Part shown: positions 20,947-41,214 of the stretch, one piece after another
Position numbering within the stretch: position 1 is the stretch's first letter
Layout of the letters: every line of letters starts with the position of its first letter
Assembly: GCA_025965875.1 (NCBI GenBank)
Contig: JAOPWD010000407.1
Location: 1 to 44,595, forward strand
Direction of reading: 5' to 3'
Source: Pseudonocardiales bacterium
GTDB taxonomy: Bacteria > Actinomycetota > Actinomycetes > Mycobacteriales > Jatrophihabitantaceae
Length of the DNA: 44,595 nucleotides
The notes under the pieces: generated by a model
The model's database searches: none
What the model was told of the DNA's origin: nothing
What the model saw: the letters and a program-made list of their open reading frames with translations, nothing else
Translations under genes and position numbers: made by a program

Positions 20947-23378
<2,432 letters not shown>

Positions 23379-28030: not shown

Positions 28031-28918
28031 ATGACAGTCCACCGGATGCCCGTCGTTGTCGGAGTCGACGAGTCGGACGGCGCAGACCAGGCACTGACGT
28101 GGGCAGCCGAGGAAGCCCGGTCGCGGGGCGTCGGGCTGCGACTGGTCTGTGCGTACGGCGGGGAGTTCAGTTACGCCGGGCTCACGCTGTTCGGCAACTT
28201 TCCGGTGCCTGACCTCGCCGGGGCCGGCAAGGCCACCGCGGACCTGCTGGCCAAGGCCGCGGCTCGCGTGGCCGAGCGGACGCCCGAGGTCGAGGTCGTC
28301 ACGGAGGCGGTCGAAGACGACGCTGCGCAGGCCCTGATCGAAGAGTCTGCCAACGCATCGTTGATGGTGCTTGGTTCGCGGCATCGTGGCGGCACCGGAT
28401 CGGTGGTACTCGGTTCGGTGAGTTCAGCGGTGGCGGCCCAGGCGGCGTGCCCGGTCGTCGTGCTCCGGGGACCGGCGGGTCTGGCGGCCGAGCACGCCCA
28501 AGTGGTGGTCGGAGTGGACGGGCGGCCCAGTTCCGAGAAGGTCCTCGCGTTCGCCTTCGATTACGCCAGCCGACACGCCGCCCCGCTCCACGCCGTGCTG
28601 TGCTGGCATCCCGACCGGCTCGCGGAAATGAAGTGGCGCGCCCAACAACCTGCGCCGGCCGAGGCAGAAGCGTGGTTGTCCGAGGCGCTGGCCGGCTGGC
28701 GAGAGCGCTACCCCGACGTCACCGTGCACAGCGGGGTGGAGCGCCAGCACCCGGTTGACGCCTTGGTCGAGGCGTCGAACGGACAGGATCTGCTGGTGGT
28801 CGGCAGCCGTGGCAGGCATGGGCTGACCGGCGCCGTGCTCGGCTCGGTCAGCCAGGGTGTACTGCACCACGCGAACTGCCCCGTCGCGGTGCTGCACTCG
28901 GCGCCTGGTTCGGATTAA
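28031..28918 (+). CDS. Universal stress protein, two USP domains (tandem copy 2)
   Basis: This 295-aa paralogue of the preceding gene has LGSRHRGGTGSVVLGSVS and VGSRGRHGLTGAVLGSVS as its two nucleotide-binding loops. GGAG precedes ATG 28031 by 6 nt. Its stop codon overlaps the stop of the convergent acetate kinase gene (28915-28918). The two USP genes are evidently a local duplication. No box or terminator was seen in the 44-bp gap between the copies. Confidence 0.87.
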   Translation: MTVHRMPVVVGVDESDGADQALTWAAEEARSRGVGLRLVCAYGGEFSYAGLTLFGNFPVPDLAGAGKATADLLAKAAARVAERTPEVEVVTEAVEDDAAQALIEESANASLMVLGSRHRGGTGSVVLGSVSSAVAAQAACPVVVLRGPAGLAAEHAQVVVGVDGRPSSEKVLAFAFDYASRHAAPLHAVLCWHPDRLAEMKWRAQQPAPAEAEAWLSEALAGWRERYPDVTVHSGVERQHPVDALVEASNGQDLLVVGSRGRHGLTGAVLGSVSQGVLHHANCPVAVLHSAPGSD

Positions 28919-30012
28919 CCGCCGGCGATCAGCCGGCGCACCTCGCGGGCGATCTGCAGGTCTTCTCGTGCGGTGACCACGACGGTGCGCGCGGTTGCCC
29001 CGGCGGCGCTGATGTCGGCGTCCCCCTCGACCGCGCTGTTGCGGTCGGCGTCCACCGCGACGCCGAGGAAGTCCAGCCGCTCGGCCGCTCGTCCGCGCAC
29101 CAGCGGTGAGCGTTCGCCCACGCCCCCGGTGAACGCGAGCACGTCCAGGCCGCCGGCCGCGGCGGCCATCGTGGCGATCCCGCCGACGAGTCGGTGGAGG
29201 TAGACGTCGATGGCGAGCACTGCGTCGGGCGCACCGCGCTCGGCCGCCGCTTCGACGTCGCGCATGTCACCCGTGCCGGCCAGCGCCATGAGGCCGGAGC
29301 GCTGCTCCAACGCGGTGGCCACGTCGTGCGGAGTGAGGTGCTCGTGCTCCTCGAGCCAGAGCACGAGGCCGGGATCCACGGTGCCGGAGCGGGTGGCCAT
29401 CACCAGACCTTCGAGCGGCGTGAAGCCCATCGTGGTGTCGACGCTGCGGCCACCGAGCACTGCCGCCAGCGAGGCGCCTGCACCGAGGTGGCAGGTGACG
29501 ACCCGAAGCTCGGCCAGCGGCCGTCCGAGCAGGTCGGCGGCGCGCTGGGCGCAGTAGGCGTGGGACAGGCCGTGGAAGCCGTAGCGGCGGACCCCGTAAC
29601 GCTGCCGCCATTCGCGCGGTATGGCGTAGGTCGCGGCGGCGGGCGGGATGGTGGCGTGGAACGCGGTGTCGAAACTGGCGACCGCGTCGACCTCGGGCAG
29701 TTGGGCCGTGACCGCGTCGAGCGCGGCCAGTGACTTGGGTTGGTGCAGCGGGGCCAGGTCGGTCAGGTCCTCGAGCTGCTTGCGCACAGCGTCGTCGATA
29801 CGCGCCGGACCAGTGAACACGGTTCCGCCGTGCACGATGCGGTGTCCGACGACGTCTGGCCTGGGCCAGTCGAGCAGCATCTGGCCAAGCGCGGCGACGT
29901 CGAACCCGTCCGGCCCGGCGGGCAGGTCAGCGCTGCGCTCGACGCGGTCGTGCGCGTCGAGCAGGCGCAGCTTGAGGCTGGAGGACCCGGCATTGACGAC
30001 GAGCACCCGCAC
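28915..30012 (-). CDS. ackA: Acetate kinase
   Basis: This 365-aa enzyme interconverts acetyl phosphate and ADP with acetate and ATP. Motifs in order: VNAGSSSLKLRLL (1-20), GHRIVHGG, SFDTAFHATIP, YGFHGLSHAYCAQRA, CHLGAGASLAAV, TTMGFTPLEGLVMATRSGTVDPG and AFTGGVGERSPLVRGR. It is somewhat shorter than typical AckA (about 400). It follows phosphoketolase with a 3-bp gap, so the pair converts sugar phosphates via acetyl phosphate into acetate and ATP. The GTG at 30012 is the start. This is a frequent xfp-ackA operon and would give ATP under oxygen limitation, matching the adjacent DosR-type genes. Confidence 0.93.
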   Translation of the reverse strand: MRVLVVNAGSSSLKLRLLDAHDRVERSADLPAGPDGFDVAALGQMLLDWPRPDVVGHRIVHGGTVFTGPARIDDAVRKQLEDLTDLAPLHQPKSLAALDAVTAQLPEVDAVASFDTAFHATIPPAAATYAIPREWRQRYGVRRYGFHGLSHAYCAQRAADLLGRPLAELRVVTCHLGAGASLAAVLGGRSVDTTMGFTPLEGLVMATRSGTVDPGLVLWLEEHEHLTPHDVATALEQRSGLMALAGTGDMRDVEAAAERGAPDAVLAIDVYLHRLVGGIATMAAAAGGLDVLAFTGGVGERSPLVRGRAAERLDFLGVAVDADRNSAVEGDADISAAGATARTVVVTAREDLQIAREVRRLIAGG

Positions 30013-30015
30013 CGT

Positions 30016-32403
30016 TCAGTTACCTGCCTGCGCGCTCGGCCAGGTCCAGCCGGTGATCGCCGGGTCGTCCTCGCCGTTCTCGCGGGTGTACGCGCGGGCA
30101 GCGAACCGTGCGTCAGACATCTGCTGACGCAACTGCGCGGCGCGACTGCCCAACGTCGGTACGCGGTCGATCACGTCCATCACGAGGCGGAAGCGGTCGA
30201 GGTCGTTCATCATCACCATGTCGAACGGCGTGGTCGTGGTGCCCTCCTCCTTGTAGCCGCGCACATGGATGTTGTGGTGGTTGTTGCGCCGGTAGGTGAG
30301 CCGATGGATCAGCGACGCATAGCCGTGGAAGGCGAAGATCACCGGCTTGTCGGTCGTGAACAGCGCGTCGAAGTCACGGTCCGGCAGCCCGTGCGGGTGT
30401 TCGGTGTCCGGTTGCAACCTCATCAGATCGACCACATTGATGAAGCGGACCTTGACCTCGGGCAGGTGAGTGCGCATGAGGTCGGCGGCGGCCAGCACCT
30501 CGAGAGTCGGTGTGTCGCCGGCGCAGGCGAGCACCACATCTGGTTCGCCCCCGGTGTTGCTGGCCCACGGCCAGATCCCAAGCCCCCGCGTGCAGTGCGC
30601 GATCGCCTCGTCGATGGTCAGGTAGGTCAACGCCGGTTGCTTTCCCGCGACGATGACGTTGACATAGTTGCGGCTGCGCAGGCAGTGGTCGCCCACCGAG
30701 AGCAGGGTGTTGGTGTCCGGCGGGAGGTAGACCCGGACGATCTCGGCCTTCTTGTTGATCACGTGGTCGATGAAACCCGGGTCCTGGTGCGAGAAGCCGT
30801 TGTGGTCCTGCCGCCACACGTGCGAGGTAAGCAGGTAGTTCAGCGAGGCGATCGGGGCGCGCCACGGGATGTGCCGGGTGGTCTTGAGCCACTTGGCATG
30901 CTGGTTGAACATCGAGTCGATGATGTGGATGAACGCCTCGTAGCAGTTGAACAGGCCGTGCCGCCCGGTGAGCAGGTAACCCTCGAGCCAGCCCTGGCAC
31001 AGGTGTTCGGACAGCACCTCCATCACCCGTCCGTCCGGGGCGAGGTGGTCGTCACCGGGCAGCGTGATGGCATTCCAGGCGCGGTTGGTCGTTTCGAAGA
31101 CGGGCGTGAGGCGGTTGGATGCTGTCTCGTCCGGGCCCATGATGCGGAACCGGTCAGAGTTGCGGGCGGTGATGTCGCGCAGGAATTCGCCGAGCACGCG
31201 GGTGGCCTCGCTCGATTCCACGGCCGGGTTCTCGACCGGGACCGCGTAGTCACGGAAGTCCGGCATGGCGAGATCGCGCAGCAGTCGTCCACCGTTGGCG
31301 TGCGGGTTGGCGCTCATCCGCCGGTGGCCGTGCGGCGCGAGTGCCTGCAGTCCGGGGACCAGCCGGCCGGTGGCGTCGAACAGCTCCTCGGGCCGATAGC
31401 TGCGCAGCCACTGCTCCAGCAGTGCGCGGTGCTCGCTGTTCTTGCGAGTGTCGGCCAGCGGAACCTGGTGGCTGCGGAACGTGCCCTCGACGGGCAGACC
31501 GTCGACCTCCTTCGGACCCGTCCAGCCCTTCGGCGTGCGCAGCACGATCATCGGCCAGGTCGGGCGGGCGGTCGCGCCGGAGTTGCGCGCGTCGTGCTGG
31601 ATTTGCGCGATGTCGTCCAGCACCGCGTCGAGGGTGGCCGCGAGTTCTTGGTGCACCGCGGCCGGCTCCTCGCCGACGACGAAATGTGGTTCGTAGCCGT
31701 AGCCGCGCATCAGCGCTGTGAGCTCGTCGTCCGCGATGCGGGCCAGGATCGTCGGATTCGCGATCTTGTAGCCGTTGAGGTGCAGTACCGGCAGGACCGC
31801 GCCGTCAGTCACCGGGTTGAGGAACTTGTTCGAGTGCCAGCTGGCGGCGAGCGGTCCGGTCTCGGCCTCGCCGTCGCCCACGACGCACAGCGCCAGCAGG
31901 TCCGGGTTGTCGAACACTGCGCCGTAGGCGTGGACGAGGGCGTAGCCGAGTTCGCCGCCTTCGTGGATTGATCCAGGTGTTTCGGGTGCGACGTGGCTCG
32001 GGATGCCGCCGGGAAAGGAGAACTGCCGGAACAGTGCCCGCAACCCGTCCTCGTCCTGGCCGATCGAGGAGTACACCTCGCTGTAGGTGCCGTCGAGGTA
32101 GGCGTTGGCTACCAGTCCGGGGCCGCCGTGGCCGGGGCCGGTGACGTAGAGGGCGTTGAGGTCGCGTTCCTTGATGACGCGATTCATGTGGGCGTACAGC
32201 AGGTTCAGGCCCGGGGTGGTGCCCCAGTGGCCCAGCAGCCTTGGCTTGACGTGCGCGGCCTTCAGAGGTTCGCGCAACAGCGGGTTGTCGAGGAGATAGA
32301 TCTGCCCTACCGATAGGTAGTTCGCGGCTCGCCAGTACGCGTCGATCAGCTCTAGGTCCTGCTGGCTGTAGGTGCGGGTCTGGGGTGAGTCCGTACGTGG
32401 CAC
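30016..32403 (-). CDS. xfp: Xylulose-5-phosphate/fructose-6-phosphate phosphoketolase
   Basis: This 795-aa thiamine-diphosphate enzyme splits xylulose 5-phosphate or fructose 6-phosphate into acetyl phosphate plus glyceraldehyde 3-phosphate or erythrose 4-phosphate. Family landmarks include [89 protein letters not shown] (ThDP-binding), [19 protein letters not shown] and [15 protein letters not shown]. Length is normal. GTG 32403 was chosen because AAGGAG lies 7 nt upstream; a TTG at 32439 is an unlikely alternative. It is the first gene of the xfp-ackA operon. No clear DosR box was found in the upstream region. Confidence 0.95.
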
Positions 32404-32531: not shown

Positions 32532-32762
32532 TCAGTACCGTGAATCCTGAATGAAGAGCGCGCGCTTCGGACAGGCAGCCACCGCCGCGGTGGCCCGGTT
32601 GAGGTCGCGTTGATCCAATGCGCGCTCGGTGACAATCGGATAACCCCACGAATCAAAGCGCACCAGCTCGGCGGCCAAGTGCCCGCAGATGCCGACGCCG
32701 TCGCAGGCGACCGGGTTCACCCGAAGGCGACGGTTGAGCCCATGACGCGAATCGCGGGCCAC
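32532..32762 (-). CDS. Small 3Fe-4S-type ferredoxin
   Basis: This 76-aa protein has Cys20, Cys26 and Cys64 in CDGVGICGHLA and ACPKRAL, the C-x5-C...C-P pattern of 3Fe-4S (or incomplete 4Fe-4S) ferredoxins. The short acidic/basic scaffold and final ALFIQ strand fit the ferredoxin fold. The chosen GTG start at 32762 lies 1 nt after the stop of the NuoF-like gene, so expression is coupled; GTG 32720 is an alternative. It is the last gene of the electron-transfer operon and the natural acceptor or donor for the NuoF-like protein. Confidence 0.8.
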   Translation of the reverse strand: MARDSRHGLNRRLRVNPVACDGVGICGHLAAELVRFDSWGYPIVTERALDQRDLNRATAAVAACPKRALFIQDSRY

Positions 32763-32763
32763 G

Positions 32764-34089
32764 TCAGACCGGCTCGGGGATCGGGAACGATCGGGCTGAC
32801 CCTGGATGAAGACAGCTACCCCGTCTGCGGTGCGACTCGACGTCCGCCGCAAAGGTTGCCAACGCGCTCTCGATCATGCGCACGCTGCCGTCCGGATGAT
32901 TGCAGGCACCGCGTCCGACGGTCTGCGCCAGGAACAGCGACAGGCGTCGCGAGTCACGGCGGCTTGATTGTCCCCGCGCGAGCTCGGCTGTCCCGTCGGC
33001 GAGGGCGCGCAGGCCGAACAGGCAAGGCCCGCACTGGCGCGCGCTGCTCGCAGCGAGGAAGTCGGCGATCCGGGCGACGACGGCGATGCCGCAGGCGTCA
33101 TCCGGGACGGGCAGCAGTACTCCGGCTCCGAGGGAGATGCCTTGTGCCCGAAGGTAATTCTCGTCTGCGGGCAAGAGTGCTGCCGCATCCCACGTCAGCC
33201 AGGAGCCGCCGAAACCACCGATGAGTACAGCTTGCTCGCCACCTGCGAGGCGGTTCGCGCTGACCGCCTCGATGACCTCGCCGAGCGGTGTGGACGGGGC
33301 AACTTCGACGACCGTCCTGCCCGTCTCGTCGGCCACCGTCAGCAGGCTGGTGCCCTGGTGGTGCGCCGCCCCGGTCCGCGCAGCCAGTGCGGTGCGGGCC
33401 AGGGTTTCGACGTTGTGCAGCAGGGTCGGCATGCCGTGGACCCCGCTGACCGCGGCCGGTCGGGTGGTGAAGCCGGGCAGGGCGGGCCGGCCCGAGAGCG
33501 CGTTGACGATCGCGCTCGACTCCCCGCTCAGGTAGTGATCAGGCCCCACTGCCAGGCGGATCGCCGGATCCGGAAGTCTCGCCGCCCGGCGCTCGCCCAG
33601 CGCTCGCACCATCGACGATCGCGCCGCGTGGGCGCCGCCGTGCAGCCACAGGACGGCGTCGACCGCTCCGACGGCTTCGGCCGCGCACGCGAGGCCGTCG
33701 AGGATCAGGTGCGGGCGCAACTGCATCAGGGCGGTGTCCTTCGCGCTGGCCGGCTCGCTCTCGGCCCCGTTGGCGACGACGACGCCGCCGCCGCCCGCGG
33801 CGAGGTGCGCGCGCCACTTTGTCGCCGCGGGAAAGTGACTGCCCCCGCGTCCGCTGAGCCCGATCTCCTCGAGGGTGTCGACCAGTTCGGTTCCCGCACC
33901 CCCGGTGGCACGGGGACGGTCACCGAATCGCCGCACGTGCCCGGCCAGGTCATCCGCGGTGACTCGCGTGATCGCGGCAGTGCCGTCGACCGCGTACCGC
34001 ACGGCGTCACCGAGCAGTGGCGAGAAGTCCGACGCGACCTTGCCAGCTCCGTGGCCGGGCTGACGGACAAGTCGCAGCGAGGCGCTCAT
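32764..34089 (-). CDS. NuoF-like NADH/FMN/Fe-S oxidoreductase subunit
   Basis: This 441-aa protein resembles the NADH-binding 51-kDa (NuoF) subunit: GLSGRGGSHFPAATKW at 77-92 and VANGAESEPASAKD at 105-118 (FMN/NADH site), LYLSGESSAI-type region near 187-194, GVHGMPTLLHNVETLA at 216-231 and an SLBB-like stretch. The C-terminal cluster site has Cys353 and Cys356 (SARQCGPCLFG) and Cys396 (GACNHPDG). Canonical NuoF has four cysteines, the first being Ala here, so the Fe-S cluster is probably altered. The start overlaps the upstream stop as ATGA. It likely passes electrons from NADH to the ferredoxin encoded next or to the membrane cytochrome, direction unknown. Confidence 0.85.
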   Translation of the reverse strand: MSASLRLVRQPGHGAGKVASDFSPLLGDAVRYAVDGTAAITRVTADDLAGHVRRFGDRPRATGGAGTELVDTLEEIGLSGRGGSHFPAATKWRAHLAAGGGGVVVANGAESEPASAKDTALMQLRPHLILDGLACAAEAVGAVDAVLWLHGGAHAARSSMVRALGERRAARLPDPAIRLAVGPDHYLSGESSAIVNALSGRPALPGFTTRPAAVSGVHGMPTLLHNVETLARTALAARTGAAHHQGTSLLTVADETGRTVVEVAPSTPLGEVIEAVSANRLAGGEQAVLIGGFGGSWLTWDAAALLPADENYLRAQGISLGAGVLLPVPDDACGIAVVARIADFLAASSARQCGPCLFGLRALADGTAELARGQSSRRDSRRLSLFLAQTVGRGACNHPDGSVRMIESALATFAADVESHRRRGSCLHPGSARSFPIPEPV

Positions 34090-34772
34090 TGCCGCAGCTC
34101 CGCGAGTTGGTCGGCCGGTGTGCGCGCGGTGTAACGCGAGAATGCCGCTGCCGCGACGAGCAGGCCGGTCGAGAGGTAGAGCCAGCGCAGCGCATTGGTG
34201 TCGCCACCGGCGAGAACTCCGTGCAGCCAAACCAGGATGAGCGCGACGGCCGCGACCTTGTGGATCGGCCACCACACCCGTCCCGGCAGGTGCCCGGCGA
34301 GCGCAGCGGTGATTCCAGACAGGAGCCCTGACCACATCCCGACGACGCCGAGCGTCACCGCGACCGGACGGTAGCTGGCTCGCATCGGCAAGGCCGCGCC
34401 CCACCAACCGACCCCAGCGAATCGATCGGTGGCCAGGACCACGACGTGCAGCGCCGTAAAGACGAGGGTGAACACGGTCAGCGCGATGTGCAGCTGAATT
34501 CGGGCCGCAGGGCTGGGACGCGTCAGCCGGGTTCGCCACGGGTGCGACAGCACGAGCCCGAGCAACACCAGCGCGACGAGCAGTAAGTAGGAGGTGATCC
34601 CCGCAGCTCGCCCGATGATCCAGGGCGCCATCCGGTTGCCCGACACAGACCGGAATCCGCTGGCGATCAAGGCACCCGCCGCGCCGCCGCTCACCGTTAC
34701 GGCGGCGACGAGGCCGATGGCCCGCAGGCCGCCCACCGAGGCGTGCCGCGGCGGCGAAGGGCGCGCGGTCAC
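34086..34772 (-). CDS. Ferric reductase-like transmembrane di-heme protein
   Basis: This 228-aa integral membrane protein has about six hydrophobic segments, with histidines placed as in ferric-reductase/NOX-like b-type cytochromes: His95 and His109 in one segment pair, His171 and His184 in the other. No flavin or NAD domain is fused. It could move electrons across the membrane between the NuoF-like protein and an external flavoprotein or other acceptor. The start GTG 34772 overlaps the ApbE stop (GTGA), and the 3' end overlaps the NuoF-like gene. Heme ligation is inferred from spacing only. Confidence 0.8.
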   Translation of the reverse strand: MTARPSPPRHASVGGLRAIGLVAAVTVSGGAAGALIASGFRSVSGNRMAPWIIGRAAGITSYLLLVALVLLGLVLSHPWRTRLTRPSPAARIQLHIALTVFTLVFTALHVVVLATDRFAGVGWWGAALPMRASYRPVAVTLGVVGMWSGLLSGITAALAGHLPGRVWWPIHKVAAVALILVWLHGVLAGGDTNALRWLYLSTGLLVAAAAFSRYTARTPADQLAELRQ

Positions 34773-35728
34773 GACGCCTGCCAGATCACGGCAGGAGCGA
34801 TGTGCTCGCTCATCCCGATCGCGCCGTCGTCGGCAACCCACAGCGCGGCAAGACCGTGCGCCGATGCCTGGGCTGCGATGTCATCGCGGCCGCTGAGGAA
34901 CAGCACCTTGCTCCAGACCTCGTCCATCGCCGGGTCGGCCCCGACGACGGTGACCGCAAGCAGCCCAGGGCCACCGGGCGTACCGGTTCGGGGATCGATC
35001 AGGTGGTGCACCCGATGGCCCGCCACCGTCCAGTGCCGGAGCCGGATCGACGAGGTCGCGCACCCGGTCGAGCGGACGCTCAAGACCGCGATGGGCCGGG
35101 TGCCGCCGCGCGGATCCTCGACGGCTACCTGCCAACCAGCGCCTTGCGGCCCGTCGCCGGCGAGGTAGCAGTCTCCGCCGGCTTCGATCAGGTAGGAGTC
35201 GCAGGCGCGCGACATTTCCTCGGCTGCCCACCGGATGGCCAGACCCTTGGCGATACCACCGAGATCGACGGGGACCGGTCCGATCTGCACAGCGCCGCGC
35301 ACTGGGTCGAGCCTCAGTCGCCACTGTCCGCTCGCACGGCGTTGTGCGACCGGCAGGGCGTGACTTCGGATCTCGACGTCACCCGCACCGAAGGGCAGGG
35401 AACGGTCGTATCCCATCTCCAGGAGAGCGGTCAGCACACGCGGGTCGAAGGTCGCGTTGGTTGCCTCGTGGGCGCTCGCTGCCTCGGCGAGAGCGGCGAA
35501 GCAGTAGTGGGGGACCACGTGCCACGCATCGCCCGCCGCATTGGCTTGCATCAGCGGGCTCTGCGGGTCGAACCGGGTGCACTGCCGCTCGACTTCGGCG
35601 AAGACCCAGCGAACCCGTTCGATCGCGTCATCCGGCGATGGGGTGCCCGGCGCCAGCCGGATGGTCACAGCCGATGCCATCGCCGCGAACGAGACGGACA
35701 CGTCGGCGTCGGTCGTGACGTCAGTCAT
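34769..35728 (-). CDS. apbE: FAD:protein FMN transferase (ApbE family)
   Basis: This 319-aa enzyme attaches FMN covalently to Ser/Thr of partner proteins. Conserved blocks are the TRFDPQSPLMQANA segment near 51-64, NATFDPRVLTALLEMGY, VDLGGIAKGLAIRWA near 153-167, the YLIEAGGDCYLAG strand, HHLIDPRTGTPG near 245-256 and the closing AMDEVWSKVLFLSG-type metal-site segment. No lipobox or signal peptide is apparent, so it may act in the cytoplasm, which is unusual since many ApbE proteins are exported. Its target is not clear; no FMN_bind domain protein is in the operon. It overlaps the next gene by 4 nt. Confidence 0.88.
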   Translation of the reverse strand: MTDVTTDADVSVSFAAMASAVTIRLAPGTPSPDDAIERVRWVFAEVERQCTRFDPQSPLMQANAAGDAWHVVPHYCFAALAEAASAHEATNATFDPRVLTALLEMGYDRSLPFGAGDVEIRSHALPVAQRRASGQWRLRLDPVRGAVQIGPVPVDLGGIAKGLAIRWAAEEMSRACDSYLIEAGGDCYLAGDGPQGAGWQVAVEDPRGGTRPIAVLSVRSTGCATSSIRLRHWTVAGHRVHHLIDPRTGTPGGPGLLAVTVVGADPAMDEVWSKVLFLSGRDDIAAQASAHGLAALWVADDGAIGMSEHIAPAVIWQAS

Positions 35729-35749
35729 GATTGCGCCGTTGCCGATGGC

Positions 35750-36229
35750 TCAACCGGACGCACCGGTCGACGTTTGGACTGGCGGCGGGGGAGCCGATGA
35801 CGGGACCGGGGCCGGCGCGGATGGCGCCGGGGCGGAAGCCGGGGCGGCGGCTGCGGGCGTCTGCACGGGGGGGTTGGCAGGGCCCGCAGCCGTCGCGGGA
35901 TCACCGACGGCGCCGGAGGTGGCGCCAGGTGTAGTCCCGTGCGAGGAGGCATTGAGAGTCTTCAATTGCGCCCTCAACTCGGCCAACAAACGGGTGAGCC
36001 GAGTTACTTGCGCGGCGTTCGCCGCGGCTGATCGCTGCAGCGCAGGCACCGCCGCAGCGGGGTTTGTCGCCGCTGGAGCGTTCACGCTGCCGGTAGCCGG
36101 TGGCTTCACCTGCGTCGCCGGTGCGGTGTGCAAAGACCATGCCGTCGCGGCGCCGAACACCGCAGCCGCGCCAGGTGCGGCGAGCACGGTCAGTGCCCAG
36201 CGGGGGCGTCGCGCCATGCGGTCAGTCAC
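35750..36229 (-). CDS. Small exported Ala/Pro-rich protein of unknown function
   Basis: This 159-aa protein begins with a basic stretch and a hydrophobic segment (RWALTVLAAPGAAAVFGAATAW), i.e. a signal peptide or anchor. A helical, possibly coiled-coil section (AAANAAQVTRLTRLLAELRAQLKTL) and a low-complexity Pro/Ala tail follow. The start overlaps the stop of the upstream gene by 8 nt. The layout copies that of the upstream exported protein (TM, short helix, Pro-rich tail), so the two may be partners. No catalytic motif is seen. Confidence 0.7.
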   Translation of the reverse strand: MTDRMARRPRWALTVLAAPGAAAVFGAATAWSLHTAPATQVKPPATGSVNAPAATNPAAAVPALQRSAAANAAQVTRLTRLLAELRAQLKTLNASSHGTTPGATSGAVGDPATAAGPANPPVQTPAAAAPASAPAPSAPAPVPSSAPPPPVQTSTGASG

Positions 36230-36671
36230 CACCGCTCCCGTCGTCGTCGCTCGGCGACGGCCGTGGCGAGGTCGTGGGGTGGTCGGGTGGTGACGTCCGC
36301 GGGGACGGCGAGCGGCGCGATGTCGTGGGCACCGCGGTACTGATTGGCTGCGCCGTGCTCGGCCCGGCACCGGTCGACGTACCCGGTTGGCTGCCGAGGC
36401 GCTCGAGTCGCGCCTGCGCCTCGTCGACCTGGTGCTGCATGCGGGCAATCAGCGACCGGAGCAGCGCCGTGTCCTGGGCGGAGCCGGTGAGCTTGGCCCG
36501 CAGCGTGGCCAGTTCGGTGCTCGTTGTCGAGTATGCGGCGCTCACCGGTTTGCGGGTCACCGGCTGGCTGGCCGGCTGCGGCGTCGGCACGGCCGCGAAG
36601 GCAACACCAGCGCCCACGGCGAGCGCTGCCGACGCCCCCAGGGCGATGCGCACGCGATGACGTTGTTTCAC
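36222..36671 (-). CDS. Small exported protein with coiled coil and Ser/Pro-rich tail
   Basis: This 149-aa protein has a signal peptide (MKQRHRVRIALGASAALAVGAGVAFA), a predicted helix/coiled coil (STELATLRAKLTGSAQDTALLRSLIARMQHQVDEAQARLERLG, about 51-93) and a Ser/Thr/Pro/Asp-rich tail. A GGAG site lies 5 nt upstream of GTG 36671. It lies between the SARP-linked membrane protein and the ApbE-containing genes. Function is unknown; an extracytoplasmic structural or spacer role is possible. Confidence 0.75.
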   Translation of the reverse strand: MKQRHRVRIALGASAALAVGAGVAFAAVPTPQPASQPVTRKPVSAAYSTTSTELATLRAKLTGSAQDTALLRSLIARMQHQVDEAQARLERLGSQPGTSTGAGPSTAQPISTAVPTTSRRSPSPRTSPPDHPTTSPRPSPSDDDGSGGD

Positions 36672-36746
36672 CCGGTCTCCTTCGACGGCCGATCGCGATC
36701 CGCGGATGCTTACTCTCCGTGGTTATCGCCCGGCCCACCTTCCGGG

Positions 36747-37430
36747 TTACGTTCCAGTGTGTTCGGACGGTGAGTCCGAGCCGGGCGGCGTCGACTCGCC
36801 GGGCTCGATCACGTGCTGGTGCTCCGGGGCGTCGTGTCCGGAATCCTGGCCGCGTTCCGCGTCGCCCGAGCCAGGTTCGCGATCCTCGCTCGGCTCCGGA
36901 CCGCTCGCGTGGGTCGGCTGCGGAGTGGACTGCTGCGGCTTGGTGGGATGGCTTGGCTTGGTCGGCGTGATTGGCTGCGCCGGCATGATCCGTGGCACGG
37001 CCGGCACGGGGGCGGGCTTGTGCCGTGGCGGCTCCGGCATGCTCCGCGCCGGCTTCCGAGACGGTCCACCGAGCGGGTCACTCTGGGCTGGCGCCGCTTC
37101 GGGAGCGACGCGCGCATGGGCGTGATGGGCGGGACCAGGCGGTCGTTCTTGGGCCGCGGCCGCTCCGGACAGGCCTGCGCCGATCGAGCCCATGATGACC
37201 GCTCCGGCGATCGTCTTACCGTGCCGACGTCGCCGGCGTTGCGGTATCACCGGGTCCGCTGCGCCGTCGAGCATCGCCTCGAGTTCCGGCGACGGAACGG
37301 GTGGGGCACCCCCAGCGAGCGAGCGAAGTTCATTGAGGAAGGCGTCGAGACGGACTGAGGCAGGCTCGCCGATCGAGGACGCGGCGATTTCCTCGCCCGC
37401 ATCGTCGCGGCTGCCCCCGTCGCGTGTCAT
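36747..37430 (-). CDS. Single-TM Pro-rich membrane protein of unknown function
   Basis: This 227-aa protein has an N-terminal cytoplasmic region of about 70 aa, a basic RRRRRHGK stop-transfer-like run, one TM segment (TIAGAVIMGSIGAGLSGAAAA) and a long Pro/His/Glu/Ser-rich outer part. This anti-sigma-like topology is not enough to assign that function, since no sigma factor is adjacent. Its ATG overlaps the SARP stop (ATGA), so it is co-translated with the regulator. It may feed a signal to, or be controlled by, the SARP. Confidence 0.75.
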   Translation of the reverse strand: MTRDGGSRDDAGEEIAASSIGEPASVRLDAFLNELRSLAGGAPPVPSPELEAMLDGAADPVIPQRRRRRHGKTIAGAVIMGSIGAGLSGAAAAQERPPGPAHHAHARVAPEAAPAQSDPLGGPSRKPARSMPEPPRHKPAPVPAVPRIMPAQPITPTKPSHPTKPQQSTPQPTHASGPEPSEDREPGSGDAERGQDSGHDAPEHQHVIEPGESTPPGSDSPSEHTGT

Positions 37431-38167
37431 CTCGGCCTCTCTATCGTTTGCGGGTATCTGCGGGTTACGCCCGTGCCGGCGCTCGAGGTCACCGGCCCGC
37501 GGACTTCAGCCAGCACGGCACGGGTGGCCGGGCCTGGGCTGACGCCGAGCTCGGCGTGCAGCCGGTCGACGAATTCACGAGACGCCACCAGCGCCCCGGC
37601 GCGGTCACCGGCCGCGCTCAGTCGGCGCAGCAGCGCTCGATGGGCCGGCTCGTCGAACGGCGTCAGCGCGCAGCGCAGTCGCGACAGCCGTGCCGCCTCG
37701 GCGGGTTCGCCGGCCGCCTCGGCCCGCTCCGCCAGCCGGTCGAGCAGTGAGGTGTGCCGCTCGCGGTGCTCCCGGCGTGGTTCGCTGGCCCAGTCGTCGA
37801 GCACGCCGGGGAGCAGCTCACCCTGCGACAGTTCGGCGGCGCCGGCGAGGTCGCCCAGATCGGTCCGGGTCCGGATCTCGCGCACGTCGATCCACCAGGC
37901 CGGCTCGTGCAACCCGACTGCCGCCCGGGTGGCGTGGATCGCGTCCGCCCCGACGGCCTGGCGCAGGGACCACAGCGCGGTCCGCAGGTTGGCATGGGCA
38001 CTCGATTGCGCCGCGTCCGGCCAGAAGCGCGCGGACAGTGCGTCGCGACTGTGCAGGCCAGGGCAGAGCGCGAGAGATGCCAGAATCCGCCGGTTGGTCA
38101 CCGAGAGCGGCACTGGTATCCCGTCACTCTCGACGGCCAGTTCACCCACGAGCCGCAGGCTCAGCAC
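37427..38167 (-). CDS. SARP/AfsR-type transcriptional regulator with BTAD domain
   Basis: This regulator of about 246 aa has an N-terminal winged-helix DNA-binding domain (SLRLVGELAVESDGIPVPLSVTNRRILASLAL, then RFWPDAAQSSAHANLRTALWSLR) and a C-terminal bacterial transcriptional activation domain (LLDRLAERAEAAGEPAEAARLSRL to FVDRLHAELGVSPGPATRAVLAE). The GTG at 38167 was chosen to match family N-termini; GTG 38203 is possible. SARP proteins usually activate secondary-metabolite clusters. Here it heads an operon of exported and electron-transfer genes, which is unusual and suggests it activates that operon. Confidence 0.85.
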   Translation of the reverse strand: MLSLRLVGELAVESDGIPVPLSVTNRRILASLALCPGLHSRDALSARFWPDAAQSSAHANLRTALWSLRQAVGADAIHATRAAVGLHEPAWWIDVREIRTRTDLGDLAGAAELSQGELLPGVLDDWASEPRREHRERHTSLLDRLAERAEAAGEPAEAARLSRLRCALTPFDEPAHRALLRRLSAAGDRAGALVASREFVDRLHAELGVSPGPATRAVLAEVRGPVTSSAGTGVTRRYPQTIERPR

Positions 38168-38247: not shown

Positions 38248-39201
38248 TCAGGCTTGGTAGACCTCCTGCATGAGGTGATAGAGCAGCAGCAGTTGGGTCA
38301 TCGCGAGCGGTTCGCTGCGCTCGCCAGGACCCACTGAACCGAGTCCCTCGGGCATCTCCCGCTTGTCGGCCACGCCGGCCCAGATCTCCTTCTGGAGCAT
38401 CTGGATTTCGTCGTGGTTTGCGTGGCCATGCACGTGCAGGCAGTCCACCGGAGTGCCGTCGTTGTCACGGATGATCTTCAGGTGCATGGCCGTCCGGTGG
38501 TCGTCGGTGAGGATGTGGCTCAGCGGCGGGTGCTGGATGGTCGGCCGTAGCAGGAGTTCTGCCGACAACGGGGTGCCCGGCGGATCGTTGCGGCTGGGCA
38601 CCGGCGCGAACCTGACCACGATGTCGGCATGGCGACGCTGCGGGCGGATGAACTCAGCCGACTCCGGCTCGCGACGCTCCAGGTCGGCCTCGACCTGCGC
38701 GGCGGTGTACCCGCGCTTGCTCGTGTCACGTTTGATCTTCCATTGGCGCCGGATTTCCTCCGGCGGATCAAGGAACACGCTGATGTCGAAGCAGGCGCGC
38801 GACAGTTTGGTGAACAGCGGCAGCAACCCCTCGATGATGACGAACTGGCGCGGCTCGACGTACCGCGGGCGGGTGAAGGTGCCCGTGCTGTGGTCGTACA
38901 CCGGCTTCAAGATCGGCTGGCCGGTGGCCAGCATCTGCAGGTGCTGCTCCATGATGTCGACGTAGTTGCAGTCCGGATGCAGCGGGGTGAACGGCAGTTC
39001 CGTGCGCTCCGCCCGGTCGAAGCGGTGATAGTCGTCGACGCAGATCGCCGTGCAGCGGTCGGGCCCGATCGCATCGACGAGACCAGTGGCAAGCGTGGTC
39101 TTGCCCGACGCACTGTCCCCGCCGACGGCCAGCATCACGGGTCTCGGCCGGGCCGCATCGGGTAGGCGAGAGCGCGTCATCCTGATCTGCTTGTCAGGCA
39201 C
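38248..39201 (-). CDS. Phosphoribulokinase/uridine kinase-family protein
   Basis: This 317-aa P-loop kinase has Walker A GGDSASGKTT near 25-34, VDDYHRFDRAERTELPFTPLHPDCNYVDIMEQHL (about 54-87, matching the phosphoribulokinase signature), the PVYDHSTGTFTRPRYVEPRQFVIIEGLLPLF block and a C-terminal helical region. GTG 39201 was chosen because GGGAG lies 5 nt upstream; ATG 39180 is an alternative. It probably phosphorylates ribulose 5-phosphate or a related sugar. No RuBisCO gene is in the window, so a Calvin cycle role is not supported here. It diverges from the response-regulator gene at 39365. Confidence 0.85.
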   Translation of the reverse strand: MPDKQIRMTRSRLPDAARPRPVMLAVGGDSASGKTTLATGLVDAIGPDRCTAICVDDYHRFDRAERTELPFTPLHPDCNYVDIMEQHLQMLATGQPILKPVYDHSTGTFTRPRYVEPRQFVIIEGLLPLFTKLSRACFDISVFLDPPEEIRRQWKIKRDTSKRGYTAAQVEADLERREPESAEFIRPQRRHADIVVRFAPVPSRNDPPGTPLSAELLLRPTIQHPPLSHILTDDHRTAMHLKIIRDNDGTPVDCLHVHGHANHDEIQMLQKEIWAGVADKREMPEGLGSVGPGERSEPLAMTQLLLLYHLMQEVYQA

Positions 39202-39364: not shown

Positions 39365-40021
39365 ATGCGGGAGCCCATGCGCGTTCTGCTGGTCGATGAC
39401 CACGAGATGGTTCTGCAAGGTCTGCAGGCCATGCTTTCCCGCTTTGCCGACAAGGTCGAGGTCATCGGCACGGCTACCGAGGCGGCCGAGGCCGTGCGGG
39501 CGGTGAGCGCCGACCACCCCGACGTTGTGCTCTGCGATGTGCGCCTGCGACAAGGCAGTGGGCTGGACGTGTGCACCGCGATCCGCAAGATCGACCCGCA
39601 GGCGAAGGTCGTCTTCTTGACGGTCTATGACGACGAGCAGTACCTGTACCAGGCGTTGCGGGTCGGTGCGTCGGGCTACCTGCTCAAGCGCGTGGACGCC
39701 CACGAGTTGGTCCGCCATCTTGAGAACGTGTGCGAGGGCGAGATCGTCATCGACCCCATGCTGGCCGGCCGCGTCGCTGCATCGGCGGCACATCTGCAGA
39801 GCGGGGAGTTCTGGCCCGGTGCCCGGCTCGGGCTCACCCAACGCGAGAGCGAGGTGCTGGCGCTGCTGGTCGGCGGCATGTCGAACAAGGCGATCGCGGC
39901 GCGGCTGGTCGTCAGCGACGACACGGTCAAGACCCACCTGCGCGGGGTCTATCGCAAGCTCGACGTCAACGACCGGGGCGGCGCGGTCGCGACCGCGCTG
40001 CGTGAGGGCCTATTCCATTGA
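39365..40021 (+). CDS. NarL-family response regulator (second two-component pair)
   Basis: This 218-aa regulator has a receiver domain (VLLVDDHEMV; phospho-acceptor Asp58 in VLCDVRLRQGSG; Lys in SGYLLKR) and a LuxR-type helix-turn-helix (LTQRESEVLALLVGGMSNKAIA, then VSDDTVKTHLRGVYRKLDV). ATG 39377 is a second possible start. Its stop overlaps the start of the kinase gene (TTGA). It is divergent from the phosphoribulokinase-like gene across 163 bp. Confidence 0.9.
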   Translation: MREPMRVLLVDDHEMVLQGLQAMLSRFADKVEVIGTATEAAEAVRAVSADHPDVVLCDVRLRQGSGLDVCTAIRKIDPQAKVVFLTVYDDEQYLYQALRVGASGYLLKRVDAHELVRHLENVCEGEIVIDPMLAGRVAASAAHLQSGEFWPGARLGLTQRESEVLALLVGGMSNKAIAARLVVSDDTVKTHLRGVYRKLDVNDRGGAVATALREGLFH

Positions 40022-41214
40022 CCAGTAGGGACACCCTGTCCGACGAGCTGGCGCTGGTAGCCGCCGCCAGCCGGCTGATCGTTCGCGAACCGTCCCTTCC
40101 GGCGGTGCTGGCCGGCGCGGCACGGCTGCTCACCGAAGCGCTGTCGGCCGACGGCTGCCTGGCGTACCGGATCGAGGGCAACGGCGAGCTCGTCGTCGCG
40201 GCCACCTACCCGGAACGACTGGCACCGGCCGAACCATTGCGGCTGCCCAGCGGCTTCGGCGTCACCGGCCGGGTCGCCGCCGACCAGATACCCGCCGTCC
40301 TCGTCGACGACAACCCACGCAACGTGTTGCACCGCGAACTCCTGGGGCTCGTGCCCGGACAGCTCGTGTCGCGGCTGTGCGTCCCGGCGCGTCCGCCGGA
40401 GGGCGGCTGCACGGCCGTGCTCGCGGTGCACAGCTTCCAGCGCCGGGAATTCGCCTCGTGGGAGATCGACGCCGCCCAGCGCGTAGCCGATCTGGTCGGC
40501 CTCCGGGTCCAGTTGCAGCGTGAATCATCGGCGCTCGGTGCCTTCGAGGACAGATGGGAGCGGCTGGTCGCCGCGACGGTGACTGCGCAGGAGGACGAGC
40601 GGCGCCGGGTGGCCGGCGACCTGCACGACGGCGTCACGCAAGCGCTCGCCAGCCTGACCTTTCACCTGTCCGCGGCCGAGGTCGCCCTGGCCGACCGGGA
40701 CTACGACTTCGTGACCGATCAGGTGCGCGCGGCCCGCGCAGCGGCCGACCTCGCCTTCGCCGAGGCCCGTCACGCCATCTCCGGTCTGCACAGCCCGGTG
40801 CTCGACGATCTCGGCCTGGCCGCAGGACTGGTCAGCATGGCGCGGGCCATCCCCAACCTGCAGGTCGAGGTCGACGCACAGGACATCGACCTGCCCGAAC
40901 ACGTCGAAGCCGCGCTGTTCCGCATCGCGCAGGAGGCGGTGCAGAACGTGGTCAAACATGCCGATGCGACGCGCGCGTTCGTGAGCCTGGCCAAGCGCGG
41001 CCGCTCGGTCGTGCTGCGGGTCAGTGACGACGGCCGGGGTTTCGTTGCGCCCGGCCCGATATCCGGCGTCGTGCACGGCCGCAGCGCTGCGTCGCAATTC
41101 GGCCTGATGGGGATGTACGAGCGGGTCCAGCTGCTGGGCGGCCATCTGTCGGTCCGCTCCGAGGCCGGCGACGGCACAACGGTCGAGGCAGTCATCCCCG
41201 ACGCGGCGGGCTGA
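40018..41214 (+). CDS. GAF-domain sensor histidine kinase (HisKA_3/HATPase)
   Basis: This 398-aa kinase has a GAF domain (about 10-170: LAVLAGAARLLTEALSADGCLAYRI to VADLVGLRVQLQ), a HisKA_3 helix pair with phospho-acceptor His in AGDLHDGVTQALASLTF, and a HATPase domain (EAVQNVVKHADATRAFV; VSDDGRGF; GLMGMYERVQLLGGHLSV). The start is TTG 40018, overlapping the regulator stop, which is a common translational-coupling arrangement. There is one GAF rather than two, and no heme-His motif like that of the 20971 kinase, so its signal is unknown. Confidence 0.88.
   Translation: MTSRDTLSDELALVAAASRLIVREPSLPAVLAGAARLLTEALSADGCLAYRIEGNGELVVAATYPERLAPAEPLRLPSGFGVTGRVAADQIPAVLVDDNPRNVLHRELLGLVPGQLVSRLCVPARPPEGGCTAVLAVHSFQRREFASWEIDAAQRVADLVGLRVQLQRESSALGAFEDRWERLVAATVTAQEDERRRVAGDLHDGVTQALASLTFHLSAAEVALADRDYDFVTDQVRAARAAADLAFAEARHAISGLHSPVLDDLGLAAGLVSMARAIPNLQVEVDAQDIDLPEHVEAALFRIAQEAVQNVVKHADATRAFVSLAKRGRSVVLRVSDDGRGFVAPGPISGVVHGRSAASQFGLMGMYERVQLLGGHLSVRSEAGDGTTVEAVIPDAAG

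Follow-up and report, generated by a model that had tools for sequence, protein, structure and literature searches.

A candidate electron-export operon with predicted flavin-acceptor tails in a Pseudonocardiales bacterium

An operon with predicted flavin-acceptor tails

The DNA analysed here (the window) is a 44,595 nt stretch from a Pseudonocardiales bacterium (assembly GCA_025965875.1, contig JAOPWD010000407.1), and it carries at nt 32532–38167 an eight-gene operon that probably exports electrons across the membrane, the C-terminal tail of a protein named P4 (in many relatives that of P3 as well) serving as a natural flavin tag that would hold a tethered flavin mononucleotide (FMN), joined by a flexible linker, outside a di-heme cytochrome. 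On balance we also lean slightly towards a wider proposition, that such proteins are widespread actinobacterial ApbE acceptors of a domain-less kind: membrane-anchored and disordered, flavinylated on a C-terminal tag by an ApbE subfamily that has co-evolved with them and has changed metal ligands, and using a bare tethered FMN as the outer carrier of a NuoF-fed di-heme cytochrome. A first-pass annotation, made from the sequence alone, had described eight minus-strand genes, mostly overlapping or close to abutting, and a check of the window sequence and its open reading frames (ORFs) confirmed all eight at their original coordinates. In the list below, TM stands for transmembrane.

nt 37427–38167, minus strand: SARP-like regulator, 246 aa, GTG start (Pfam BTAD, 5.2e-14)
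nt 36747–37430, minus strand: P2, one-TM Pro-rich protein (one hydrophobic segment, no family)
nt 36222–36671, minus strand: P3, with N-terminal TM segment, helical segment, Pro-rich linker and acidic C-terminus (from sequence features; motif degenerate, TSTGAG)
nt 35750–36229, minus strand: P4, with N-terminal TM segment, helical segment, Pro-rich linker and C-terminal VQTSTGASG (from sequence; topology N-in/C-out predicted from charge bias)
nt 35756–35776, minus strand: Q-T-S-T-G-A-S codons, proposed flavin-acceptor tail of P4, the last Ser being the predicted FMN site (sequence and conservation)
nt 34769–35728, minus strand: predicted ApbE-family FMN transferase (Pfam ApbE, 2.4e-45; PDB alignments)
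nt 34086–34772, minus strand: di-heme ferric-reductase-type transmembrane cytochrome (invariant His, AlphaFold model, fold matches)
nt 32764–34089, minus strand: NuoF-like NAD(P)H dehydrogenase (Pfam Complex1_51K, 2e-29; NADH_4Fe-4S, PF10589, 8.1e-14)
nt 32532–32762, minus strand: three-Cys ferredoxin (Pfam Fer4_15, 5e-7; invariant C20, C26, C64)

Overlaps of a few bases join SARP to P2, P3 to P4, ApbE to the cytochrome and the cytochrome to the NuoF-like gene; the NuoF-like and ferredoxin genes nearly abut, and gaps of 21 bp and 75 bp separate P4 from ApbE and P2 from P3. P2, P3 and P4 have a single hydrophobic segment each, and a Pfam search of the window proteins found no family for any of them. 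That the ORFs are real is shown by their homologues, which keep the same order in many genomes. An Rfam search of the window gave no match. The annotation's view of the genes as one operon for membrane electron transfer is supported.

In the proposed pathway the NuoF-like protein, with FMN and iron–sulfur (Fe-S) centres, would oxidise NAD(P)H in the cytosol, and the electrons would pass, possibly by way of the three-Cys ferredoxin, to the cytochrome and across the membrane through its two hemes. Outside, they would be taken up by FMN that the cassette's own ApbE has bound covalently to P4 (in many relatives to P3 as well), at the Ser of a tail of the type [DHQN]xx[ST]GAS. P4 and P3 each consist of a single TM anchor and a long, flexible linker rich in Pro, so this flavin pendant could swing on its tether from the cytochrome to a surface acceptor, which may be a metal, a quinone or oxygen.

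Conservation of the cassette

Genomes, loci and contigs are numbered with the prefixes G, L and C; G000 is the window's own genome and is about 90% complete. The conserved cassette is ApbE–Cyt–NuoF–Fd (Cyt, cytochrome; Fd, ferredoxin), found in one order across Actinomycetota. The set that co-occurs, as seen in the gene-neighbourhood search proposed with the first-pass annotation, consists of these four genes with P4 and usually P3, not all eight genes. The NuoF-like protein is present in about 30 of the 150 relatives searched, and at E<=1e-50 it is matched in 114 of 394 genomes of the class. A scan of the collection, with cytochrome alignment, gave 31 named loci from Pseudonocardiales, Jatrophihabitans, Kineosporiaceae, Nanopelagicales, Cellulomonas, Actinotalea and Acidimicrobiaceae. 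These are mostly class A; in a more distant form of the cassette, class B, which comes from further genomes within the order and class, the genes are arranged identically. The order is complete in 23 of the 31 named loci and cut by contig or locus ends in six; of the remaining two, L081 has the cytochrome alone and L080 is rearranged (Cyt–NuoF–Fd–ApbE), with a P3-like tail protein (TQAKTGASGG) still preceding its cytochrome gene.

The set had been called unfamiliar, which it is not: 31 clusters (of 1797) combining an MsrQ-like cytochrome, apbE and a NuoF-like protein have been catalogued (Meheust et al. 2021, PMC8238504), and on a Rhodococcus qingshengii plasmid NCBI annotates these four cassette genes in their class B form. 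An origin from phages or plasmids was considered and rejected, as phage records give only distant NuoF matches; plasmid matches occur in Rhodococcus and Streptomyces at 37–38%.

Some loci lack apbE. The window's own genome has a second copy, P3–P4–Cyt–NuoF–Fd without apbE (contig C163, locus L036, 7590–12017), accompanied by a divergent extracytoplasmic function (ECF) sigma factor and a P2 homologue. Cyt–NuoF–Fd without apbE or a tail protein is seen in L114–L118 and L100, from a Streptomyces plasmid and other families of the class, and of the five genomes tested from this group three contain no ApbE. Thus far the cassette is able to occur without flavinylation.

The tail motif of P4 and P3

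The ORF directly before apbE encodes a TM-anchored, low-complexity, Pro-rich and apparently disordered protein with a common C-terminal motif. Tails of P4, each written up to the stop codon, include VQTSTGASG (window), VQTTTGASGGGG, THTTTGASGVIK, AHTKTGAS and VDASTGAS, and in further relatives VDATTGAS, ADASSGAS, HTGSGAS, PQATSGGS and VHTTTKAS. The motif described for ApbE acceptors, which they resemble, is D-x-x-[ST]-G-A-[ST], and seven residues are all that ApbE requires; the end of a protein is the best place for a flavin tag, and replacing Asp by Ala caused little loss in one tested acceptor (PMC12052999). For the Vibrio cholerae ApbE the Asp has been called essential (PMC10722498).

The last nine residues of the TM ORF adjoining apbE were scanned, with shuffles as the null. 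Among the 31 class A loci, a count that includes L037, whose ApbE is actually of class B type, the strict pattern [ST]GA[ST] occurs in 15 (shuffle mean 0.25; none of 5000 shuffles reaches this count) and the wide pattern [ST][GKRH][AGSP]S in 29 (shuffle mean 1.3). Six of 13 class B loci have the relaxed form [ST]G[AGS][ST] (shuffle mean 0.7), and 237 other called genes, used as a control, gave 0 strict, 1 relaxed and 3 wide matches. A looser pattern, [DHQN]xx[ST]x[AGS][ST], was fixed on the first set and then found in 10 of 11 loci fetched later (mean 0.6; 0 of 20000), all these shuffle tests treating species as independent samples, though the linkers are widely diverged. Three residues ahead of [ST], at the place of the Asp of the ApbE motif, 27 of 29 have H, Q, N or D, although the alignment was anchored without this position. 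The full D-x-x-[ST]-G-A-S is present in L043, L044, L094 and L112, and both classes include tails that match the described motif exactly (DASTGAS, DATTGAS, DASSGAS).

The tail also goes with apbE. By one fixed pattern it is found in 42 of 59 loci with apbE versus 0 of 11 without (Fisher 1e-5), a comparison that is not phylogenetically independent because the loci without apbE come mostly from few lineages. Among the 17 misses, several come close to the pattern, for example AATTGASGAP and VATSGGS. The P3 and P4 homologues of the second copy at C163 have no tail motif, and three genomes of other families (G309, G201, G330) have Cyt–NuoF–Fd with no ApbE anywhere and no tail protein.

P3 repeats the motif in relatives, as [HQ]xx[ST]GAS, 13–62 residues before its end and ahead of a D/E/H-rich tail ending DD; this copy lies far from any start codon and hundreds of bases from apbE. 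The C-termini of the P3 homologues in L043, L044, L061, L065, L067, L069, L079 and L082 contain very many Asp, Glu and His residues and end in DD. With this composition the acidic, His-rich ends may bind metal at the cell surface, hinting at a metal ion as acceptor. Mean net charge is +2.8 before the TM segment and -0.1 after it, so that the tails are predicted to lie outside.

Search for conventional flavin acceptors

The first-pass annotation had postulated a covalently flavinylated partner not yet identified and had proposed a genome search for an FMN_bind protein. Such a partner fits the sequence evidence, and judging from its acceptor-like C-terminal motif it is probably P4 (and P3 in relatives), within the operon itself. 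The search found a single FMN_bind protein, on a separate contig (C341), where a dedicated ApbE and a dedicated NAD-binding ferric reductase adjoin it; this is a canonical system (locus L001, 13–2489), whose exported FMN_bind protein carries DTVSGAS. An FMN_bind partner at the operon was rejected, since a family search of the own genome and 42 relatives gave none beside the cassette in the loci examined. Half of the relatives with the NuoF-like gene (15/30) have no FMN_bind anywhere. In four genomes that are 95–99% complete and have no FMN_bind gene, every ApbE lies inside a cassette beside the NuoF-like gene (one each in G015, G017 and G359, two in G336). Other acceptor families, DUF2271 and Flavodoxin_4, gave nothing above cut-off in these four, nor did NqrB/RnfD in G015 and G017. 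Rnf and Nqr were rejected for the window as well, as PF03116 (NqrB/RnfD) is absent from the operon and from the own genome at its present completeness; the first-pass annotation, which could not match the set to Rnf, Nqr or Nuo, is supported in this.

Cytochrome, NuoF-like protein and ferredoxin

The window cytochrome has no significant Pfam match, and PF01794 was not reported. Its H95/H109 and H171/H184 are invariant among 14 aligned homologues, with the spacing of the two bis-His hemes in ferric reductase and NOX proteins. The best fold matches of its AlphaFold model (pLDDT 84) are cytochrome b561, STEAP4, STEAP2, a bacterial NOX and NOX5, at Z 12–13, values that are only suggestive for helical bundles, though every one of the top matches is a membrane protein of this type that carries heme. 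NCBI labels the Rhodococcus qingshengii homologue as ferric reductase-like.

In the NuoF-like protein the ligands of cluster N3 are altered, AxxCxxC standing in place of CxxCxxC in alignments with PDB proteins, and two extra cysteines, C333 and C426, are invariant; the Cys pattern is kept in 55 of 55 homologues. The protein possibly holds a different Fe-S cluster. The three cysteines of the ferredoxin are invariant in 52 of 52.

Alternative explanations

Several observations count against flavinylated tails. Known ApbE acceptors are folded domains (PMC11334425). The window tail, QTSTGAS, has Gln in place of the motif Asp, tails of the Cellulomonas group (TKAS/TRAS) have lost the motif Gly, and the shared ancestry of the loci without apbE (see above) weakens the association of tail and enzyme. 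The P4 stop overlaps the apbE start in many loci, where tail codons may double as translation-start signals, and the codon of the tail Ser is TCN in 47 of 48. The ApbE itself keeps the active-site Ser and His in alignments that include PDB proteins, but its metal ligands (of the Asp284/Thr288 type, taken from PMC5655446) are changed: Asp is Glu in 32 of 32 class A proteins, the window's among them, and Asn in 17 of 17 of class B, and Thr is Lys in class A (32/32) and retained in class B (17/17). Because these changes are fixed, a working but altered enzyme is favoured, the chemistry of which may differ. A signal peptide is missing from the cassette ApbE, while P4 is predicted to have its tail outside, which would imply flavinylation before export; the ApbE of the C341 pair likewise has none. 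A third ApbE of the own genome, of class B type, lies at the end of contig C145 (locus L037, 6050–7139), after a 92-aa TM protein ending PVGGSNGS.

An ApbE of changed function, acting as a flavin adenine dinucleotide (FAD) pyrophosphatase or transferring something other than FMN, would make the tail the substrate of another modification or a docking peptide. The fixed ligand replacement (class A has E+K, class B has N+T) would suit this, as would the tail variants TKAS, TRAS and SAGS, which depart from the described motif, and a Treponema ApbE homologue that is an FAD pyrophosphatase (PMC4767422). We nevertheless think it unlikely, given the retained active-site Ser and His, the DASTGAS, DATTGAS and DASSGAS tails in both classes and the need of the chain for an outer carrier after the cytochrome. 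Similarly improbable is an ordinary MsrQ-like system, with P3 and P4 as structural or cell-wall components and an FMN_bind protein from elsewhere in the genome as the substrate of the cassette ApbE. ApbE is able to work in trans, an FMN_bind gene is typical of MsrQ-like clusters (PMC8238504), and the protein on C341 would be a candidate; but that protein adjoins an ApbE and ferric reductase of its own, half of the 30 NuoF-like relatives have no FMN_bind, including genomes with every ApbE in the cassette, and the conserved tail would be left unexplained.

Two further explanations have very little in their favour. If the conserved C-terminal residues were a by-product of DNA constraint on the apbE start, acting through a ribosome-binding site or the stop/start overlap, the overlap and the TCN codon would be accounted for, and G-rich Gly codons or AAG-G could act as the ribosome-binding site. 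This is largely refuted by the copies of the motif in P3, remote from apbE, and by the loci where the tail is kept without overlap (the 21 bp gap of the window and larger ones in L042, L057, L061 and L064); moreover, the tail Thr, Gly and Ala codons vary at their third positions, and the H/Q/N/D position is unexplained. The other, to which we give hardly more than token weight, is that the chain runs inward or sideways, as an NADH:ferredoxin (or quinone) oxidoreductase reducing ferredoxin. The last two genes are indeed NuoF-like and ferredoxin, and bifurcating enzymes (HydB, NfnB) include homologues of NuoF; in the Pfam search, however, the operon had no ion-translocating subunit or second flavoprotein of bifurcating type, and the tails and anchors are predicted to point outward. 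The first-pass annotation had allowed for either electron export or ferredoxin reduction. The latter is not favoured because there is no ion-pumping subunit and the cytochrome is of ferric-reductase type; export is favoured, with outward flow as the probable direction.

Regulators and neighbouring genes

The operon had been described as SARP-led, which is a local feature. In the neighbourhoods examined, the SARP gene stands beside the cassette only in the window and in no relative, and it was rejected as a member of the conserved set, relatives showing an ECF sigma factor and P2 homologues instead. A check for an N-terminal winged-helix DNA-binding domain in the SARP-like protein gave only a weak response-regulator match at 9–81 (E 0.0025). 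P2 homologues adjoin the ECF sigma factor, divergent from the cassette, in three loci (L036, L041, L058), and P2 is therefore probably a membrane-bound regulator of anti-sigma type rather than a redox protein or electron carrier.

Acetate kinase and phosphoketolase genes lie downstream of the operon (nt 28915–32403) and a phosphoribulokinase-family gene upstream (nt 38248–39138). Histidine kinases with GAF domains and a response regulator of LuxR type, at nt 20971–22725 and 39365–41214, recall hypoxia-sensing systems of the DosS/DosR kind. From the context of the window, phosphoketolase, acetate kinase and GAF-type sensor kinases nearby would fit the disposal of reducing power.

Relationship to known systems

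Of the genomes that encode flavinylation machinery, about half lacked a characterised system (PMC11334425). ApbE genes are common, and if the tails are flavinylated, searches based on the FMN_bind domain miss a whole class of acceptors. The outer electron carrier could then be a pendant cofactor, as lipoyl or phosphopantetheine arms are in other enzymes, and the engineered flavin tag would have an equivalent in nature. The system is approachable through cultured organisms that carry the cassette (Rhodococcus qingshengii, Cellulomonas sp. SG140, Actinotalea lenta).

The window system is related to the MsrQ-like flavinylation systems; the class is known from genome mining (PMC8238504), and no biochemical characterisation of it was found in the literature searched. 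Common to both are actinobacterial clusters, apbE, a six-TM di-heme cytochrome and, for the 31 catalogued clusters, a NuoF-like protein (PF10589) as the entry point for NADH. In the MsrQ-like systems an FMN_bind gene is typical, whereas here disordered tail proteins are in its place, and PF01794 (ferric reductase-like), which defines those systems, was not reported for the window cytochrome, despite its invariant bis-His pattern and its nearest folds. With the NuoF of Complex I, HydB, HoxF and the formate dehydrogenase beta subunit, the NuoF-like protein shares the Complex1_51K FMN/NADH domain and a C-terminal Fe-S domain; unlike them, it is without the first Cys of CxxCxxC, has two further invariant Cys, and adjoins no NuoE or NuoG.

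Flavin-based extracellular electron transfer in Gram-positive bacteria, as in Listeria (Ndh2/EetAB/PplA/FmnB), relies on the folded flavin domains of a lipoprotein, is quinone-linked and has a secreted FmnB, and the cassette has bare tails and a di-heme cytochrome instead. Both have an NADH dehydrogenase, a membrane step, an ApbE-type enzyme and a membrane-anchored surface protein that is flavinylated in Listeria and predicted to be so here (PMC9973259 for Listeria).

The genes of described ApbE acceptors (FMN_bind, NqrB/RnfD, DUF2271, Flavodoxin_4, FMN_red) likewise adjoin apbE and carry the acceptor motif, in FMN_red within a C-terminal extension; all of these are folded (PMC11334425), whereas P4 and P3 show no recognisable domain beyond their TM anchor, helical segment and linker. 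In the literature read, acceptors are folded domains (PMC8238504, PMC12052999, PMC11334425), and domain-less disordered tails would be new among them. The closest parallel to a bare tail is flavin-tag technology (Tong et al. 2021, as cited in PMC12052999 and PMC10722498), in which, according to these citing papers, a short terminal DxxxGA[TS] is flavinylated by ApbE without a flavin domain; that tag is engineered, and the tail of P4 would be its natural counterpart.

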